From positions 1 to 64,000 of the forward strand of contig CASDRB010000012.1 of the NCBI GenBank assembly GCA_949283025.1: DNA of 64,000 bases. The letters run 5' to 3'. Source of the DNA: an uncultured bacterium (GTDB lineage Bacteria > Bacillota_I > Bacilli_A > RFN20 > CAG-826). The notes under the pieces were generated by a model. The model saw nothing but the letters and a program-made list of their open reading frames with translations, searched no databases and was not told the origin of the DNA. Numbering within the stretch: position 1 is the stretch's first letter; the number at the start of each line of letters is the position of its first letter. This document shows, in pieces, positions 241 to 19,196 of this stretch. A program made the translations under genes and the position numbers.

Positions 241-293
241 CAAGAGGTAACTTTGATTAACCCTCGTTTGGTGGTAAGTTGCCTCTTTTTTTA
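241..293 (+). terminator. Intrinsic terminator or hairpin small RNA
   Basis: AGAGGTAACTT near 243 pairs with AAGTTGCCTCT near 276 (one G-U/A-C difference) around a loop of about 22 nt. A T7 run follows on the plus strand. It sits just past the stop codon of the minus-strand gene ending at 291, so it may also fold in that transcript. Confidence 0.6.
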
Positions 294-602
294 TTTCTTC
301 TTTTTGGAAATAGCTCTAATTCTTGCTTTGTCCTCAACATCTTTGACTTTACAGCTAATTATTTCTTTTCCAAAAGATTCGCGTTTCGCATATCGCGGAT
401 TTTTTAAAACATAACAATCTTTGTTTGATTTAGAATCTATATTTTTATTTAGTTTAATTCTTCTTGGTCCTTTTGAGCTTGTAAAACAAACAATGTTATA
501 TCTATTCTTTTTATCATTTTTCTTGTACACATAAGATGGATGCAATCCTTTAATAGAATTATCTTTGTGCCAATAATATTTGCCTTTTTTAATAATCTTC
601 AA
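291..602 (-). CDS. Small basic protein of mobile-element type, paralogue of 1171-1491
   Basis: 103 residues, very Lys/Arg rich, starting with TTG (AAGGAG lies about 10 nt upstream). It begins MKIIKKGKYYWHKDN and carries HPSYVY, then a hydrophobic patch NIVCFTS and a conserved-looking KLNKN...KNPRYAKRES segment. The protein at 1171-1491 has the same plan: K-x-WWH near the N-terminus, a hydrophobic strand, LxKPxNKKADKSYV, and a basic C-terminus. I cannot assign a function. Similar small WWH proteins are, as far as I recall, common in Firmicutes conjugative elements and prophages. It is the last gene of the minus-strand run 1802 to 291. Confidence 0.55.
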   Translation of the reverse strand: MKIIKKGKYYWHKDNSIKGLHPSYVYKKNDKKNRYNIVCFTSSKGPRRIKLNKNIDSKSNKDCYVLKNPRYAKRESFGKEIISCKVKDVEDKARIRAISKKKK

Positions 603-604
603 TT

Positions 605-874
605 CTATTTTTCTCCTTTCTTGTCTTTACTTTTATTCACTTTTTCTAAAGCTTTAACTTGCTTATTAATAGCTTTAGTTTGCTTATTTATTTTTCTTGT
701 ATTAGCACTTGCTGAAATACTTGTAAAAATAGGTGCGACATACGGATAAATTAAAGCTAATAAAACAATAAGAATGATAAGGCCTATAATTCCTAAAACA
801 GCTCCAAAAATATTTCTATTTGTCCAATCAATATAAGGCGGAATACCATCTGGTATAATATTGATAGGATCCAT
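605..874 (-). CDS. Single-pass membrane protein of the integrated element, possibly the 3' part of a frameshifted gene
   Basis: 89 residues: an N-terminal DPINIIPDGIPPYIDW segment, one long transmembrane helix (about residues 24-50), then a Lys-rich amphipathic tail with KxIxKQxKAIxKQVKALEK heptad-like repeats (probable coiled coil). The ATG at 874 has no ribosome site, and the frame is open further upstream. It overlaps the preceding gene (828-1058) by 47 bp, far more than normal coupling. I suspect the two frames were one gene: signal anchor, Thr-rich linker, then this helix and coiled coil. It ends 3 bp before the next gene. Confidence 0.5.
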   Translation of the reverse strand: MDPINIIPDGIPPYIDWTNRNIFGAVLGIIGLIILIVLLALIYPYVAPIFTSISASANTRKINKQTKAINKQVKALEKVNKSKDKKGEK

Positions 875-1058
875 AAGAACAGGAATAATAGTTAGAAGTA
901 TCTTCAGTAGTTGTTTCTGAAGTTGTTGGAGGTGTTAAATTCTCCTTGGTTTTATCAAAATTCGTAAACCAATCTGTTGAAGCGCCAAAAGCGATTACGC
1001 CTCCAGCAGCGATAAGCGTCATTAAGACCGCTAAAAATGTTGTAAATTTTTTTGCCAT
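828..1058 (-). CDS. Signal-anchored small protein with Thr-rich linker, element gene
   Basis: 76 residues with a good ribosome site (AAGGAG 8 nt before ATG). MAKKFTTFLAVLMTLIAAGGVIAFG is a signal peptide or signal anchor. A polar region follows with a TPPTTSETTTEDTSN linker. The last 20 residues (YYSCSYGSYQYYTRWYSALY) look unlike coding sequence and overlap the next frame, so the natural product is probably a +1-frame fusion with the protein encoded at 605-874. Function unknown; a phage or conjugative-element envelope protein is plausible from context only. Confidence 0.5.
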   Translation of the reverse strand: MAKKFTTFLAVLMTLIAAGGVIAFGASTDWFTNFDKTKENLTPPTTSETTTEDTSNYYSCSYGSYQYYTRWYSALY

Positions 1059-1170
1059 ATTTATAATCTCCTTTTCTTGACAATGTTTTTAAAATTAATA
1101 TAATGAACTTGTCTAAATCCTGTTTTCGATTTAACCCTTTAAATAGGGTTTTACAGGAAATAGACTTTTT

Positions 1171-1491
1171 TTATTTTTTGTTTTTTAAATAATCCTCAAT
1201 TATATCCATATCTTCATCGCTAATTTGATATTTCATAATCCATCTAGAAAAGATTTTTTTCTTTTGCTTACCAACATATTTTCGAACATATGATTTATCA
1301 GCTTTCTTATTTATCGGTTTTTTTAAAAGAATATAAGATTCATGTTTAGCAGGATGAGTTGTTATATCCATATACGTTATATCCATATACGAATATTTAC
1401 CAGATTTTAAAGGACTATCTTCATCAACAATTAATGCTGCATGTTTAGTTTTATTATTATTTCTAATATGCCACCAAGAACGTTTTTTCAT
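1171..1491 (-). CDS. Small basic protein of mobile-element type, paralogue of 291-602
   Basis: 106 residues: KKRSWWHIRNNNKTKHAALIVDED at the N-terminus, then a short in-frame tandem duplication giving YMDITYMDIT (a 15-bp direct repeat near 1365-1394), LKKPINKKADKSYVRKYVG, and an acidic and then Lys-rich C-terminus. It shares its overall plan with the protein at 291-602, which suggests diverged paralogues in one element. Function not recognised. It lies 14 bp after the upstream gene in the same minus-strand run. Confidence 0.55.
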   Translation of the reverse strand: MKKRSWWHIRNNNKTKHAALIVDEDSPLKSGKYSYMDITYMDITTHPAKHESYILLKKPINKKADKSYVRKYVGKQKKKIFSRWIMKYQISDEDMDIIEDYLKNKK

Positions 1492-1505
1492 CCTTTGTTT
1501 TCTTC

Positions 1506-1802
1506 CTATTCATCAATAGCTAGACGATTATTTAAAATTTCAGTAAATTCAATTTTTTTAGATAAAGTGTCATAAGTATCTCTTTTAATATGAAATTTAT
1601 CTTGGATATTAAAATTACCGTGAATGTAATATTGAATACGTGTTTTAATAACACTTTGTTCATCCACGATTGATTCATATGTATGAATGACTTTAGTAAT
1701 CTCTAAATCGTTGTATGAAACAGTTTCATAAACATCGATTATTTCATCTTTATTAATCATATATTGTGAAATCATGACATCAAAATATGCTTCAGTACAC
1801 AT
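1506..1802 (-). CDS. Unrecognised element protein, possibly 5'-truncated
   Basis: 98 residues from the ATG at 1802, mixed alpha/beta in composition and acidic, with no motif I recognise. The frame stays open and coding-like upstream of that ATG (DASYLTKAEHDEALASLNSD) until it meets the truncated recombinase at about 1861-1880, and the chosen ATG has no clear ribosome site. An ATG near 1874 would fit if one T of a T4 run were absent. The gene may therefore have lost its true start at the same junction that truncates the recombinase. It heads the run of small minus-strand genes. Confidence 0.45.
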   Translation of the reverse strand: MCTEAYFDVMISQYMINKDEIIDVYETVSYNDLEITKVIHTYESIVDEQSVIKTRIQYYIHGNFNIQDKFHIKRDTYDTLSKKIEFTEILNNRLAIDE

Positions 1803-1860
1803 ATCTTTATCTGAATTTAAAGACGCTAGAGCTTCATCGTGTTCTGCTTTAGTTAAATAA

Positions 1861-3189
1861 GATGCATCAAAACATCTTTTCGATATTATTGTCGTATATC
1901 AATTAGATCGTTTTGGAAGAAATGTATCAGAATCAATGATTGAAGAACAAAAATTAAAAAGACTTGGCATTAAATTATTATCAGCAACTGAACTTATCAC
2001 AAGTGAGAACGAGGAGCTAAACGACGATTTATTTTTACCTCGCGGTTTAGTTCGCCTTTTTGCTGAAAATTATTCTCGCGATTTATCAAAAAAAGTAAAA
2101 CGAGGATTAAAAGAAAGTTATTATAAGCGTAATAGTGTTGGTGGTATTTTACCAATAGGATATAAAAGCATAAATAAAAAAATTGTTATTGATCAAATAG
2201 AAGCCGATATTGTTAAAGAAGCTTTTAAAAGAAGACTCCAAGGCCAAACAATAACTGAAATATATAATTATTTTAAAAACAACGGATTTGCTAGAAAAAA
2301 TGGCTCTTTGATTTCTCGCGCATCAATTCACAAAATGCTTTCAATGACTAAATATATCGGTAAATTTGTCAATCCATATGATTCAGCGGATATTATCACT
2401 GATATGTTTCCTCCTATTATTGATGAAAACACATTTATGTTAGTAAATTCTATCGAAAATAATCCACATAAATATCGCAAAAAAACAGATATGCAAAATT
2501 ATGTTTTAATTGGTAAGTTATTCGATGCCGAAACCGGAACACCATATAAAGCATATTCAGGAACTTCATGCACAAAACGTTTGTATAGATATTACAAACT
2601 CAATTCTATAAAATTGCCAAAAGCAAAATTTGAAAAAATGGTTTACGATGCAGTTTGTTCATTTTTAAACAACCCTAAAAGAAAAGAACAAATTGCGGAT
2701 TTGCTTTATAGAGAATTGGATAAAAGAAAAGATACAACTATTATTGATAACTTAAAAAGAGAATTAAAAGAGCTTAAAACACAGCAAAAAGAAATTGCTA
2801 AAAAGTTTATTTTTTGTGACGAGTCTATGGAAACGTCCTTAAATGAAATAGCAAAAGAAACTCAAGATCGTATCAATCATTTAGAAAATAGAATAAATGT
2901 TGAAATTTCTAAGTTATCTAGCATTGCACTTGGCAAAGATGGGATTAAATATTTGATCACAAATTTATTTTCTAAAAAAATTACTGATCCAACAAAAATA
3001 TCAAAAAGTTTAGACTTAACAATCAATGCAATTTATCGTTCAAAAGATACGATGGTTATTTATCTTAAATTGAATAATGATAAGTTTGTAACTTATCAAG
3101 AATACTTAAAAGATTTGGAAGAAATAAAAAAGAACTCTTCCTCATTTTATGAGGCAAAAGTTCATTTAGCGTTTGCTCTGGCGGAGTAG
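1861..3189 (+). pseudogene. Large serine recombinase, 5'-truncated
   Basis: The frame is open from 1861 (TAA at 1858), and the first ATG is at 1936. The opening residues DASKHLFDIIVVYQLDRFGRN match the end of the resolvase catalytic domain (consensus vxYxxDRxxRN). The first 55-60 residues, including the catalytic serine, are missing, and no other frame upstream supplies them. The recombinase domain follows (GGILPIGYK to SMTKYIGKFVNP). The next domain lacks the zinc-ribbon cysteines, as in the subgroup with FDxxTGxPY...YRYYK. A coiled coil sits near residues 265-310 counted from the 1936 ATG. The frame ends inside the tRNA-Ser gene. Without the catalytic serine it cannot recombine DNA by the known mechanism. 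Confidence 0.85.
3125..3163 (-). terminator. Terminator of tRNA-Ser, inside the recombinase frame
   Basis: On the minus strand GAACT/AGTTC and CCTCAT/ATGAGG form a two-part stem (3132-3163) followed by T6. It lies 16 nt beyond the tRNA CCA end, where a tRNA terminator belongs, yet it is also coding sequence for the recombinase C-terminus. Confidence 0.75.
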
Positions 3190-3269
3190 GAGAGACTCGA
3201 ACTCTCGCGCCAGTTGCCCGACCTACGTCCTTAGCAGGGACGCCCCTTCACCAACTTGGGTACTACTCC
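3179..3269 (-). tRNA. tRNA-Ser (GCU anticodon)
   Basis: Acceptor GGAGTAG pairs with CTACTCC, G is the discriminator base and CCA is encoded (3179-3181). The anticodon loop CTGCTAA reads GCT, there is a long type II variable arm, and the T-loop is TTCGAGT. The 3' end overlaps the last codons of the truncated recombinase, a common arrangement for elements integrated at tRNA genes. proS lies just upstream on the same strand. Confidence 0.95.
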
Positions 3270-3321: not shown

Positions 3322-4758
3322 TTAATATGCTTTTGCAAATAAAACTACTTTATGAGCTTTTTTACCGCATATTGGACATACATCATCAAATTCAATTTGA
3401 TTAAAAGGCATGCATCTTGCAGTCGCATTAGTTAATTCTTTAATCTTATCTTCACAAGCTTGATCGCCACACCACATCATCTTGGCGTATCCACCTTGAT
3501 CAACCACCGCTTTTAATTCTTCTATAGAACGAACCTCTTTGATGTGATCCAATAAAAAACGATGCGCTTTTTCATACATTTCATGATGAATGGTTTTTAA
3601 CAAATTGTTAATAGTTTCCACCAAACCATCTTGAGATACACTGATTTTTTCACCAGTATTGCGTTTGGCTAAAACGCAAACATTGTTTTCAATATCGCGA
3701 GGTCCGATTTCTAATCTAACCGGTACACCTTTCATTTCCCAATCAGCAAATTTATATCCTGGAGTTTTCTCGCTTTCATCAATTTTTACTCTCAAACCAG
3801 CTTGTTTTAATGCCTCACAAACTTTTCTTGCTGCAGGGATAACTCCAGGTTTTTGTTGAGCGATAGGAATAACAATCACTTGGATAGGAGCAACATATGG
3901 TGGCAAAACTAATCCATTATCGTCTCCATGAACCATAATAATAGATCCAATTAAACGTGTAGAAACACCCCAAGAAGTTTGATATGGATGTTCCAATTTT
4001 CCCTCTTTAGATTGATATGATATATCAAAAGCTTTGCAAAATCCTTGACCAAAATAATGAGTTGTTCCACTTTGTAGGGCTTTTCCATCATGCATCAATG
4101 CTTCAATTGAATACGTTTCTTCTGCACCAGAAAATTTTTCTTTGTCGGTTTTTCTTCCTTTAACAAAAGGAATAGCTAATAAATCTTTTCCTAGCTCATC
4201 ATATATTTCAAGCATAGCCAAAGTTTCATGGCGCGCTTCAACTTCGCTTTCGTGCATAGTGTGTCCTTCTTGCCATAAAAATTCAGATCCTCTTAAAAAT
4301 GGTCTTGTTGTTTTTTCCCAACGAACAACCGAACACCACTGATTGTATAATTTAGGTAAATCGCGATAAGAAGAGATAATTTTAGCATAATGTTCACAAA
4401 ACAAAACTTCTGAAGTTGGGCGAATAATTAAAGGGTCTTCAATTTTATTTTTGCCGCCGATTGTTGCAATCAAAGTTTCTGGAGCAAAACCTTCGACGTG
4501 TTCTTTTTCTTTATTGAATAAAGACTCAGGAATGACCATTGGCATGTAAACATTTTCATGACCAGTCTTTTGAAAACGATCATTTAAATAAGATTGAATT
4601 CTTTCCCAAATAGCATATCCATATGGACGATAAATAATAAAACCTTTTACCGAAGAATAATCCATCAATTCTGCCTTCAAGCATACATCGGTATACCATT
4701 GAGCAAAATCATCTTCTAATCTTGTAATTGATTCGTTTTTAACCGTATTGTTTTTCAT
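3322..4758 (-). CDS. proS: Prolyl-tRNA synthetase, archaeal/eukaryotic-type
   Basis: 478 residues. Charges tRNA-Pro with proline in the cytoplasm. Class II motifs are visible: motif 2 RWEKTTRPFLRGSEFLWQEGH and motif 3 near LIGSIIMVHGDDNG. The short length, the WCGDQAC...CPICG metal-binding C-terminal domain (residues about 429-465) and the terminal tyrosine (AKAY) mark the short type found in some Firmicutes and Mollicutes, without the editing insertion of the long bacterial form. ATG at 4758 follows GAGGAG. It is followed on the same strand by tRNA-Ser(GCU) after a 50-bp gap holding a GC-rich hairpin without a T tract, so the two may be co-transcribed. Confidence 0.97.
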   Translation of the reverse strand: MKNNTVKNESITRLEDDFAQWYTDVCLKAELMDYSSVKGFIIYRPYGYAIWERIQSYLNDRFQKTGHENVYMPMVIPESLFNKEKEHVEGFAPETLIATIGGKNKIEDPLIIRPTSEVLFCEHYAKIISSYRDLPKLYNQWCSVVRWEKTTRPFLRGSEFLWQEGHTMHESEVEARHETLAMLEIYDELGKDLLAIPFVKGRKTDKEKFSGAEETYSIEALMHDGKALQSGTTHYFGQGFCKAFDISYQSKEGKLEHPYQTSWGVSTRLIGSIIMVHGDDNGLVLPPYVAPIQVIVIPIAQQKPGVIPAARKVCEALKQAGLRVKIDESEKTPGYKFADWEMKGVPVRLEIGPRDIENNVCVLAKRNTGEKISVSQDGLVETINNLLKTIHHEMYEKAHRFLLDHIKEVRSIEELKAVVDQGGYAKMMWCGDQACEDKIKELTNATARCMPFNQIEFDDVCPICGKKAHKVVLFAKAY

Positions 4759-4795: not shown

Positions 4796-6583
4796 TTAAA
4801 TAAATTCAGCAAGTTTATCAAATTTTTTGGCGCTGACAGGTAAAACCATTTCGCTCGATGGTGAAATTGCTTCACTGGATACATAATTGACACCAGATTT
4901 AACCATTAATTCTACCGATGCCCAACCTTCTAATCCGGTCGCGATAATTGGCTTTTTAAATTTTAGCAGCGATTCAATCAATGTTCTTAACGCAATTTGA
5001 GTCGATGAATTTTTCTTTAATTCGCCTGTCATCGCTGTGCCAGCGATAAAATAATCAAAAATCTTATAAAAGTTGACATCTAATAATAAGTTTTTATCCA
5101 TCAAGGTCAAACAAAGCTCATAGCCAATGATTTTTAAAGTTGAAAGAGAATTAATCAATTCTTTTAAATGCGATGAATTTTGAGAAATTTCTTGCTCATC
5201 AAACACTAAAACCAAGTGCGTTTTTTCTATTCTTGTAATTTGTGGTAATACTTTTTCAATATTTTCAAAATCAAGAATAGAAACAGGATAAAATAATGGC
5301 GTTTTTGCTTTAGGGACTTGATCTGCAAATCTTGGAATGACGCTTTTAGCGACCGAAGAAAACAATTCATGAGCCTTGCCGCAAGAATGTGCATAGCGCA
5401 TCATTTCATTATACGACGAAAAAGATTGTCCATATGTTTTTACAGATTGCAAATATCCCAAAACCTTTTTTTCTTTAACATTAACAATCGGTCTAAAAAG
5501 ATAACGTAATTTATTGCCTTTAATCAATGAGTCAATAATATCTTTGTTTTTATCTTCGGTCAGTTCAATATTAATCGTCTTTTCATAAAATGAAATATGG
5601 CGATTCTCTTGAGAGGCAATAAATGAGGTTTCTTGAGCATGTTTACAAATTGAAGCAAAATCACGGAAAAACAATTTATTCTCAACTATGCCAATATTTA
5701 ATCTAATGAATTTATCATAAGCATTTAACAACATCTCTTTGTGAACGATGGAAGCAATGGACGCTGCTAATTGATACGCTTGCTTGCGATTATCAATTTT
5801 TAAATCGCTGATCAATAATTCGTGGTCATTAATTTCGACCAAGTATCTAAATCGATCCTTGTTTGAAACAAAAGGATAAATCTTATCTTTAATCCTTAAT
5901 ACCATCAACCTCTCTTCTTCGGTTTCAGAAAACACTAATTGATTGACATATGTAAATCTAATTGAAAAGGTATAACCTCTCGTGCTTCTTGAACGATTGA
6001 CAAGATTTGTCAATGTTCCCATTGTTACTGCGCCACTACTAGATAAACTTTTATTAACTTTATGTTTTTTATCATCATTTTTTGGCGCTAAATACTTTAA
6101 TACTTGCATCTCAAGATGAACAATAGCTACCTCGGGATTATAAGCAATTAATCGAAGCAATGCAAATCGAGAATGATGTGTACCTTTAGCAATTGTATCA
6201 GCTTCTAAATATGGCGATATATCATCTTGTGTAGAAATAATCGCCAATATCCAATTTTTAACTCTTTCGGCATCATTTTCATGAAACAAAGAGTAAAAAT
6301 CATTTAGATTCATTTGACGTTTGTTTGAAATATCACTTCTTTTAAAATATGAAACAATATTATTTTTAACGTCTATAGAAAAAATGCGCAAAGAATTAGA
6401 TTCTTGAGAAACGCTAGAAAAATATTTTTTTTCTCTAGTATTTAAAGTAACATAAGTTGTAATCAAAATAACAAGTATGACAATGACACATAAAAAAACA
6501 ACAAATAACGCAATAAATGTAGAATTTTTAAAATCCCACCAAATGATTTCGCTAACTAATATTTTTAAAAAACTATTAATCAT
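4796..6583 (-). CDS. Membrane-anchored degenerate GGDEF-EAL protein
   Basis: 595 residues. One transmembrane helix (about 22-45) is followed by a long middle region ending in a GGDEF-like fold (LNIGIVENKLFF...FASICKHAQETS), but no GGDEF signature occurs. Residues about 345-595 resemble an EAL domain (LRYLFRPIVNVKEKKVLGYLQSV, then LKIIGYELCLTLMD, FDYFIAGTAM and KKPIIATGLE). The EAL glutamate is replaced (GYLQSV), and other metal ligands also seem absent. It is therefore unlikely to make or break cyclic di-GMP and may be a sensor or scaffold. A TTGAAA-17-TAAAAT promoter lies only 9 nt from the ATG. Single gene between proS and tRNA-Ser(CGA). Confidence 0.75.
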   Translation of the reverse strand: MINSFLKILVSEIIWWDFKNSTFIALFVVFLCVIVILVILITTYVTLNTREKKYFSSVSQESNSLRIFSIDVKNNIVSYFKRSDISNKRQMNLNDFYSLFHENDAERVKNWILAIISTQDDISPYLEADTIAKGTHHSRFALLRLIAYNPEVAIVHLEMQVLKYLAPKNDDKKHKVNKSLSSSGAVTMGTLTNLVNRSRSTRGYTFSIRFTYVNQLVFSETEEERLMVLRIKDKIYPFVSNKDRFRYLVEINDHELLISDLKIDNRKQAYQLAASIASIVHKEMLLNAYDKFIRLNIGIVENKLFFRDFASICKHAQETSFIASQENRHISFYEKTINIELTEDKNKDIIDSLIKGNKLRYLFRPIVNVKEKKVLGYLQSVKTYGQSFSSYNEMMRYAHSCGKAHELFSSVAKSVIPRFADQVPKAKTPLFYPVSILDFENIEKVLPQITRIEKTHLVLVFDEQEISQNSSHLKELINSLSTLKIIGYELCLTLMDKNLLLDVNFYKIFDYFIAGTAMTGELKKNSSTQIALRTLIESLLKFKKPIIATGLEGWASVELMVKSGVNYVSSEAISPSSEMVLPVSAKKFDKLAEFI

Positions 6584-17489: not shown

Positions 17490-19196
17490 TTATAAAGACA
17501 ATAATTTTTTTAGATCTAAATAAATTTCCTCGGCGTTAGCCTTGGAATTTTTTTCATTTACCCCTAAAGCACCAACATAAAATTTACATTTAGGCTCAGT
17601 GCCAGATGGCCTAATTGTAATAGTAGATTTATCATCTAAAAATAGTTTAACAACATCAGAAGTTGGCAAGTTGATTCTTGTGGTTATTGAAGTATTTAAA
17701 TCAATGCATTTAGAAACTAAATAATCTTCAACTTTATCAACCTTCCTTTTACCAATAAATTTTGGATAATTTGAATGAAGACCTTCCATTAATTTATCCA
17801 TTTGAGTTTGTCCAGTAGGCCCTTCAAATGCCTTTGAATAAGTCACATCATAATGATAGCCAAAACGTTTTTGCAAATCATCGTAAACTTCTAATAAATT
17901 TTTGCCTGATAAATCATAATACAAAGCCATTTCACAATATAATAGTATGGCCTGTAAACCATCTTTATCTCTAACGAAAGGTTTGACAAGGCATCCGTAA
18001 GATTCTTCATACCCAAACTCAAAATCAGGTCCACCATTAACTTCATAATAATGGATTTGTTCACCAATGAATTTAAATCCAGTCAAAAATTCTTCAGTTT
18101 TAACACCATATGATTCAGCAATCTTTTTGCCCAAGGCAGAAGAAACGATTGTAGAATACATTACTCCGTTTTTAGAAAGCATGTTTTTAGCTTTCCTTTG
18201 CGAAAATAAATAATCAATCAACATGGCTGCGGACTGGTTGCCACTAATCAACACATATTCTCCATCTTTATTTAAAGCGGCTAATCCAACACGATCTCCA
18301 TCTGGATCGGTCATACAAATTAATTTAGCACCGATTTCTTTAGCGTATTTAATCGGCTCAATATAAGCCGCTTTTTCTTCTGGATTAGGCGACAATGTCT
18401 CACTAAAATCTGGATCTGGACTACATTGTTTTAATAAAGGATAGACTTCATATCCTAAATCATTGAAAATGCGCATCGCATTGACATAAGACGTGCCATG
18501 TTGAGGGGTATAAACTATTTTAAATCCCTTTTTAGTTAATTGGGGATTAACTTGCGTTTGTTTAACTAATTCGACATATGTATCATCAACATCTTTGCCT
18601 AAAATAATCGTTTCGCCTTTATTTTGACAAGGAATGACATCAACGTCTAATTCGCATGGCAATCCATCAAGTATTTCTAATAATCGCGCGATTTTATGTG
18701 GCACCAATTGGCATCCTTGCTCGTCGTAAACTTTATAACCATTGTATTGTTTGGGATTATGAGAGGCAGTTATCATTATACCGCCACAAGCTTTCATATA
18801 TCTAACTGCGTAAGATAATTCTGGAGTCGGACGCAAAGAATCAAAAATATAAGTTTTAATACCAAAATCATTAAAAGTTTTGGCGCTAAGCAAAGTGAAT
18901 TCACGCGAAAAATGACGATTATCATGAGAAATAACAATCCCATCTTTTTTTGCATTTGGATATTTTTCTAAAACATATTTAGCAAAGGCAACACTGGCTT
19001 TTCTCACACTAAATTCATTTAATCTATTTGTGCCAGGACCTAATACACCACGCATTCCTGCTGTTCCAAATTCAACATCCTTAAAGAAGGCGTCGGCAAT
19101 CTGTTCATCGCTCATCGACTTTAAAATTTGTTTATCCTCACTAGAAACTTTGTCGCTATTGAGCCATTTTTGATAAGTTTTTTTGATGTCGTTCAT
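17490..19196 (-). CDS. pgcA: Phosphoglucomutase/phosphomannomutase (PgcA type)
   Basis: 568 residues from the ATG at 19196, 8 nt after AGGAG. Interconverts glucose 1- and 6-phosphate. The phosphoserine loop ITASHNPKQYNGYKVY, metal loop MTDPDGDRVG, sugar loop GYEESYG and the C-terminal RPSGTEPKCKFY phosphate-binding loop are intact. N-terminal GTAGMRGVLGPGTNRLN is typical of the Bacillus enzyme. Downstream of the RluD-type gene on the same strand (gap 11 bp). Confidence 0.96.
   Translation of the reverse strand: MNDIKKTYQKWLNSDKVSSEDKQILKSMSDEQIADAFFKDVEFGTAGMRGVLGPGTNRLNEFSVRKASVAFAKYVLEKYPNAKKDGIVISHDNRHFSREFTLLSAKTFNDFGIKTYIFDSLRPTPELSYAVRYMKACGGIMITASHNPKQYNGYKVYDEQGCQLVPHKIARLLEILDGLPCELDVDVIPCQNKGETIILGKDVDDTYVELVKQTQVNPQLTKKGFKIVYTPQHGTSYVNAMRIFNDLGYEVYPLLKQCSPDPDFSETLSPNPEEKAAYIEPIKYAKEIGAKLICMTDPDGDRVGLAALNKDGEYVLISGNQSAAMLIDYLFSQRKAKNMLSKNGVMYSTIVSSALGKKIAESYGVKTEEFLTGFKFIGEQIHYYEVNGGPDFEFGYEESYGCLVKPFVRDKDGLQAILLYCEMALYYDLSGKNLLEVYDDLQKRFGYHYDVTYSKAFEGPTGQTQMDKLMEGLHSNYPKFIGKRKVDKVEDYLVSKCIDLNTSITTRINLPTSDVVKLFLDDKSTITIRPSGTEPKCKFYVGALGVNEKNSKANAEEIYLDLKKLLSL

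Follow-up and report, generated by a model that had tools for sequence, protein, structure and literature searches.

A large serine recombinase remnant overlapping a tRNA-Ser(GCT) gene and its terminator: a probable integrative element boundary in a CAG-826 bacterium

In the genome of a CAG-826 (RFN20) bacterium, the truncated gene of a large serine recombinase (LSR) runs into the 3' end of a convergent tRNA-Ser(GCT) gene, with the terminator of the tRNA lying on the opposite strand of its last codons. The stretch of DNA analyzed, called here the window, comprises positions 1 to 64,000 of the forward strand of contig CASDRB010000012.1 (GenBank assembly GCA_949283025.1). We consider it probable (about 0.74) that this feature is attL, the integrase end, of a decayed integrative element, whose LSR belongs to a group that uses tRNA gene 3' ends as integration sites. 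The coordinates are given in Table 1.

Table 1. Features at the tRNA-proximal end of the window, with strand and basis of assignment
Feature	Position	Strand	Basis
Small ORFs, remaining element or its neighbour	291..1802	-	No family
Breakpoint removing the LSR N-terminus	1858..1864	.	Six-frame translation of 1500-2000
LSR, C-terminal ~442 codons	1861..3189	+	Pfam, PHROG, alignment to relatives
T-run of the tRNA terminator, TTTTTTAT	3124..3131	-	Sequence
LSR tail codons past the homologous core	3127..3178	+	Best relative L068 aligns to residue 422-424
tRNA-Ser(GCT) terminator hairpin, 32 nt	3132..3163	-	Fold z = -3.8; hairpin -14.1 kcal/mol
Presumed attachment segment (CCA to T-loop)	3179..3197	-	Analogy with the 18-19-bp repeats of relatives
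tRNA-Ser(GCT), encoded CCA	3179..3269	-	ARAGORN, Rfam tRNA, DNA search of own genome
LSR stop codon TAG, within the tRNA acceptor stem (3' strand)	3187..3189	+	Sequence
Prolyl-tRNA synthetase (proS), chromosomal flank	3322..4758	-	Beside tRNA-Ser(GCT) in 4/4 other genus genomes

The recombinase remnant and the tRNA gene in the window

The tRNA-Ser(GCT) gene is the target gene of the element, and a DNA search of the assembly found no further copy of it. The Rfam scan of the window returned tRNAs only. The genus relatives keep the proS-tRNA-Ser(GCT) arrangement and are free of the element, the sequence after the CCA being unrelated in each of them, and the GC content of the window rises stepwise near 3.0-3.2 kb. 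Both observations bear out the preliminary description, which had placed one boundary of the element at the tRNA-Ser 3' end. A boundary at the 3' end of a tRNA gene that is itself intact, as found at this locus, is one of the marks of a tRNA-targeting integrative element.

The LSR frame follows a TAA codon at 1858-1860 and stays open from 1861 up to its TAG. No stop codon interrupts it, against about 38 expected from composition shuffles, and its GC content by codon position (0.36/0.29/0.18) is of the coding type; it is therefore not a chance ORF and was a real gene until recently. The translated sequence scores over the Pfam cut-off for the Recombinase domain (PF07508, E = 5e-12) and matches the PHROG 95 integrase at 1e-49.

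Residues 424-434 of the LSR are encoded by the DNA of the hairpin, read on the opposite strand, and residues 440-442 by the 3' end of tRNA-Ser(GCT). The stop codon in the acceptor stem and the overlap of the tail with the antisense terminator had been described before and are confirmed here. The extent given for the overlap, the last 20 or so codons, was too large, since the LSR homology ends about 20 codons ahead of the stop and the hairpin itself takes up about 11. On the tRNA strand, the 64-nt stretch 3' of the CCA folds at -17.3 kcal/mol (z = -3.8), with 0/200 shuffles as good, and the hairpin and T-run directly behind the CCA have the layout of an intrinsic terminator, as predicted from sequence.

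The window LSR is a fragment of a member of the LSR family, a decayed remnant without the first ~60 residues and the catalytic serine among them; its alignment to intact relatives begins at their residue ~62. The preliminary description makes no mention of this truncation. PF00239 is matched over profile positions 55/60-138 of 145 only, with the N-terminal part absent, so that no resolvase catalytic domain with a catalytic serine is found. The zinc ribbon cysteines, which the relatives have, are replaced. Because the N-terminus and the zinc cysteines are lost, the protein probably no longer integrates. A separate N-terminal piece was sought elsewhere in the genome, where only its two other complete LSRs matched. 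The same genome also has two overlapping serine recombinase genes at L018 (G000:C16, 16093-18635), the outer one being cut off where the contig ends.

The minus-strand frame at 1506-1860 likewise spans the breakpoint, and the junction near 1861 is therefore a rearrangement or an assembly join. The junction at 1858-1864 is head-to-head, both the LSR frame and the minus-strand frame being without their 5' parts. Four of the small minus-strand ORFs to its left (828-1058 left out) gave no match in Pfam, and PHROG gave weak matches only. Searches found no phage relatives for the ORFs at 1171-1491 and 1506-1886, and the small minus-strand ORFs had no relatives. Base 1 of the window is also the start of the contig, 3.2 kb from the tRNA, and the far end of the element lies beyond this start. 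At positions 1-60, the contig start falls within a long inverted repeat with a T-run after it, a possible cause of the assembly break.

Relatives of the recombinase and the origin of the terminator

Single-protein searches of genome and viral collections found no close relatives of the window LSR. An alignment of eight family members, used as the scan query, gave 160 further loci, 15 of which have the LSR stop in or beyond a convergent tRNA. The three best LSR matches within the order (G173, G174, and G272) end in or read through a convergent tRNA-Ser, the anticodons of the three being TGA, GGA, and GGA. The best matches in the order are 31-34% identical, with about 33% for the best match of the window LSR. 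By E-value, G017, which has no tRNA, ranks between G173/G174 and, just behind it, G272.

Our tally comprises 26 loci, the window and 25 relatives, including second copies within the same genomes. In every case, the LSR frame ends within a convergent tRNA gene or past it, and seven kinds of tRNA are represented (Ser 16, Glu 3, Lys 2, Leu 2, Met 1, Ala 1, and Asn 1). With 25 relatives sharing the layout, the overlap of LSR and tRNA cannot be put down to chance, and the copy in the window is a decayed example of a recurrent arrangement. Mapped on a 121-LSR tree, the tRNA label changes 7 times, compared to 22 times in shuffles, and one clade is tRNA-adjacent throughout (16/16, SH-aLRT 84); the window LSR sits on a very long branch of uncertain placement. 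The frame enters the tRNA mainly in phases 1 and 2, among loci that are related to each other, and the sole phase-0 locus (L111) moves to phase 1 after a one-base correction of its 3' end. A GSD/CSD motif is frequent near LSR C-termini (e.g., L121, L129, L060, and L063) and stems, where a tRNA adjoins, from TTCGGAT of the hairpin; it may reflect a DNA or RNA function rather than a protein function.

We counted as a terminator a tRNA-strand structure that folds at -10 kcal/mol or better and lies no more than 80 nt from the CCA. Such a structure lies inside the C-terminal LSR codons at 24/26 tRNA loci (window included), compared to 17/260 shuffles and 24/120 (20%) of the family LSRs without a nearby tRNA. 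L069, from the order of the window, was compared with L109, from a Clostridia metagenome-assembled genome (MAG). Their tRNAs differ, being Ser(GGA) and Ser(TGA), and 149/150 of the last bases before the tRNA 3' end are identical; past this boundary, identity falls to 25/31 over the first 31 tRNA bases, 13/58 further into the tRNA, and 74/300 beyond it. Other pairs beside different tRNAs share 78-90% of their last 40 bases.

Since these pairs share the hairpin beside different tRNAs, it is element DNA in the relatives, and the sequence past the first few tRNA bases is target DNA. By analogy, the terminator of the window is probably element DNA as well, as is the segment that encodes the LSR tail before the tRNA. 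The last few codons of the LSR are tRNA sequence and vary with the target tRNA. The earlier proposal that the recombinase tail is encoded by target-site DNA thus holds for these last codons, and the terminator part travels with the element in relatives. Homologues carrying the same C-terminal residues at other loci had been named as evidence against that proposal. Such homologues exist for the residues that the hairpin encodes, but not for those encoded by the tRNA. The genus relatives each have a terminator of their own after tRNA-Ser(GCT), unrelated in sequence to that of the window. The exact terminator sequence of the window was not found in viral contigs.

The second boundary and the position of the crossover

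The preliminary description had suggested looking for the tRNA end a second time at the other side of the element, and two relatives do have such a copy. At L121, the 18-bp 3' end of a tRNA-Leu, TGGTGCGGGAGATGGGAG, recurs at a distance of 4.1 kb, following a displaced terminator. On G280:C4, the 3' end of tRNA-Ser(GCT) has a 19-bp copy at a distance of 9.7 kb; an island with restriction-modification-like genes (named from sequence) lies between the two. Both repeats presumably mark the second element boundary. No such copy was found in G202:C86, G279:C46, G281:C35, G280:C1, G180:C10, or G173:C15 at <=3 mismatches in 16 within the sequence available around these loci, nor within the window's own 1.2-Mb assembly, searched with up to 3 mismatches, where the contig starts 3.2 kb off. 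A 16-bp match on contig C16 was judged to be due to chance. The lipid-kinase gene, which lies downstream in relatives, was considered as a route to the empty site; it is on C6, in a rearranged context, and so does not provide that site.

Two mini-elements of about 105-130 bp (L296 and L305), located at tRNA-Leu(aag) in the genus of L121, are flanked by 18-bp copies of the tRNA 3' end, one base being off in one copy. Their element end, CCCTAAAAATCTTACGATTTTCAGGG, recurs in the L121 LSR element with one base changed. At the loci L295-L305, a dispersed repeat of ~140 bp with a terminator hairpin adjoins numerous tRNA genes of different kinds (Leu, Met, Arg, and Glu) at their 3' ends. It occurs in several MAGs from a single Clostridia genus and resembles a non-autonomous element that sits beside tRNAs. 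The candidate empty site for L121 in its genus was not clean, the left flank being part of a dispersed repeat, and was set aside. An OLE RNA (Rfam ID RF01071, 363 bits) lies near the island of L121, at 17705-18292.

From the presumed attachment sites, we computed the LSR ends of the circular forms. For L121, the protein would end in ...REMGALALKI, compared to ...REMGVEPTWYCYHKHLK... in the integrated form, and for G280:C4 the end would be longer than that of the integrated form. In pairs of close relatives, the first difference falls at tRNA base 4-13, in favour of a crossover near the CCA end, while the repeats of L121 and G280:C4 extend to the T-loop. In L257 (opposite strand), at the reverse-complement positions 5038 and 5799 near the presumed attR, terminator hairpins precede TGGCGGAG and a similar 25-base stretch (..CATTGAACTCTT). 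Similar modules occur in G281:C35 and G280:C1; Rfam gave no match.

Interpretation and known systems

The proposed integration would proceed as follows. The LSR gene faces the tRNA gene across an element boundary at the tRNA 3' end, its last codons carry the hairpin and T-run on the other strand directly behind the CCA, and its frame runs on into the tRNA, so that the last residues depend on the tRNA that is hit; these features are seen in the relatives. Integration would cut the tRNA off from its original terminator. The element would supply a substitute, written in the 3' end of the LSR gene, so that production of the essential tRNA with its proper end would continue. The LSR end of the circular form would differ whenever the frame passes the shared tRNA segment. 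At its far boundary, the window element would be expected to show TGGCGGAGTAGGAGAGACT again, or at the minimum TGG. A broader reading, which we put forward tentatively and at somewhat less than even odds, is that the LSR clade is a general system for integration at tRNA genes, which knows the shared CCA end and T-arm and carries a substitute terminator, its C-terminus being rewritten from the target. The use of Ser, Met, Leu, and other tRNAs by close relatives would then follow from the CCA end and T-arm being common to all tRNA genes. If this is true, the rewritten C-terminus could mark the integrated state.

The breakpoint near 1861 and the contig end at position 1 might be artificial, an intact LSR being present in the real genome. 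The contig of this MAG does begin at position 1 and both frames are broken at one point, but the other contigs hold no N-terminal LSR piece and the tRNA-proximal half would be unaffected; we regard such an assembly chimera as unlikely. Somewhat less credible still is that the terminator and the tRNA end are both old target DNA, into which the LSR frame reads by chance after an integration just upstream of the terminator. A good terminator adjoining the tRNA, as in the window, would fit this, and so would the finding that every genus relative has a terminator of its own there. Against it, the genus terminators are unrelated in sequence to that of the window, the relatives keep the terminator segment with the element beside different tRNAs, and L121 has a displaced terminator at its other boundary.

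An ordinary overlap of convergent genes, with an LSR remnant that lost its stop codon and drifted against the tRNA and with no attachment site involved, would agree with the truncated LSR and its lost zinc cysteines and with the missing second boundary in the window assembly (up to 3 mismatches). We consider it very improbable, as the same overlap occurs in 25 relatives at seven tRNA kinds and clusters on the tree, with terminators in 24/26 loci. Integration of a now decayed element at the tRNA 3' end is the reading we prefer.

If confirmed, these elements would provide serine integrases with universal, well-defined bacterial landing sites, useful in genome engineering. One DNA segment would serve at once as integrase C-terminus, tRNA terminator, and attachment site, which is an unusual case, and the overlap makes it testable whether integration alters the integrase.

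The LSRs of gut phages such as Faecalibacterium phage FP_Epona and Dulem virus 37 belong to the same protein family (about 24-30% identical), but no tRNA is nearby in the records examined. The separate parts of the arrangement are known; as far as we found in the portions of the literature available to us, the combination at tRNA genes with an element-borne terminator has not been described, and an earlier notice is possible. The TIGER resources treat both integrase families and, in the parts we could consult, report no serine integrases at tRNA genes. In the myxophage Mx8 (cited in PMC4701971), integration also replaces the integrase C-terminus, attP being inside int, but this integrase is of the tyrosine family and the passage citing it reports no tRNA terminator function. 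The streptococcal rumA ICEs (Ambroset et al. 2016, PMC4701971) likewise have one attachment site inside a single serine integrase gene, and integration alters the length and sequence of the integrase C-terminus; these ICEs enter a protein gene and exchange its 3' part, whereas the tRNA gene here stays intact.

According to the Islander paper (Hudson et al. 2015, PMC4383910), integrases of the tyrosine family are the only ones known to target tRNA genes. Tools of this type pair tRNA targets with tyrosine integrases only and would therefore miss such LSR elements. The Islander tRNA islands resemble the elements described here in the boundary at the 3' end of an intact tRNA gene and in the tRNA 3'-end fragment at the other boundary, here found in two relatives, but differ in that the integrase here is of the unrelated serine family and that the terminator lies within its coding end.
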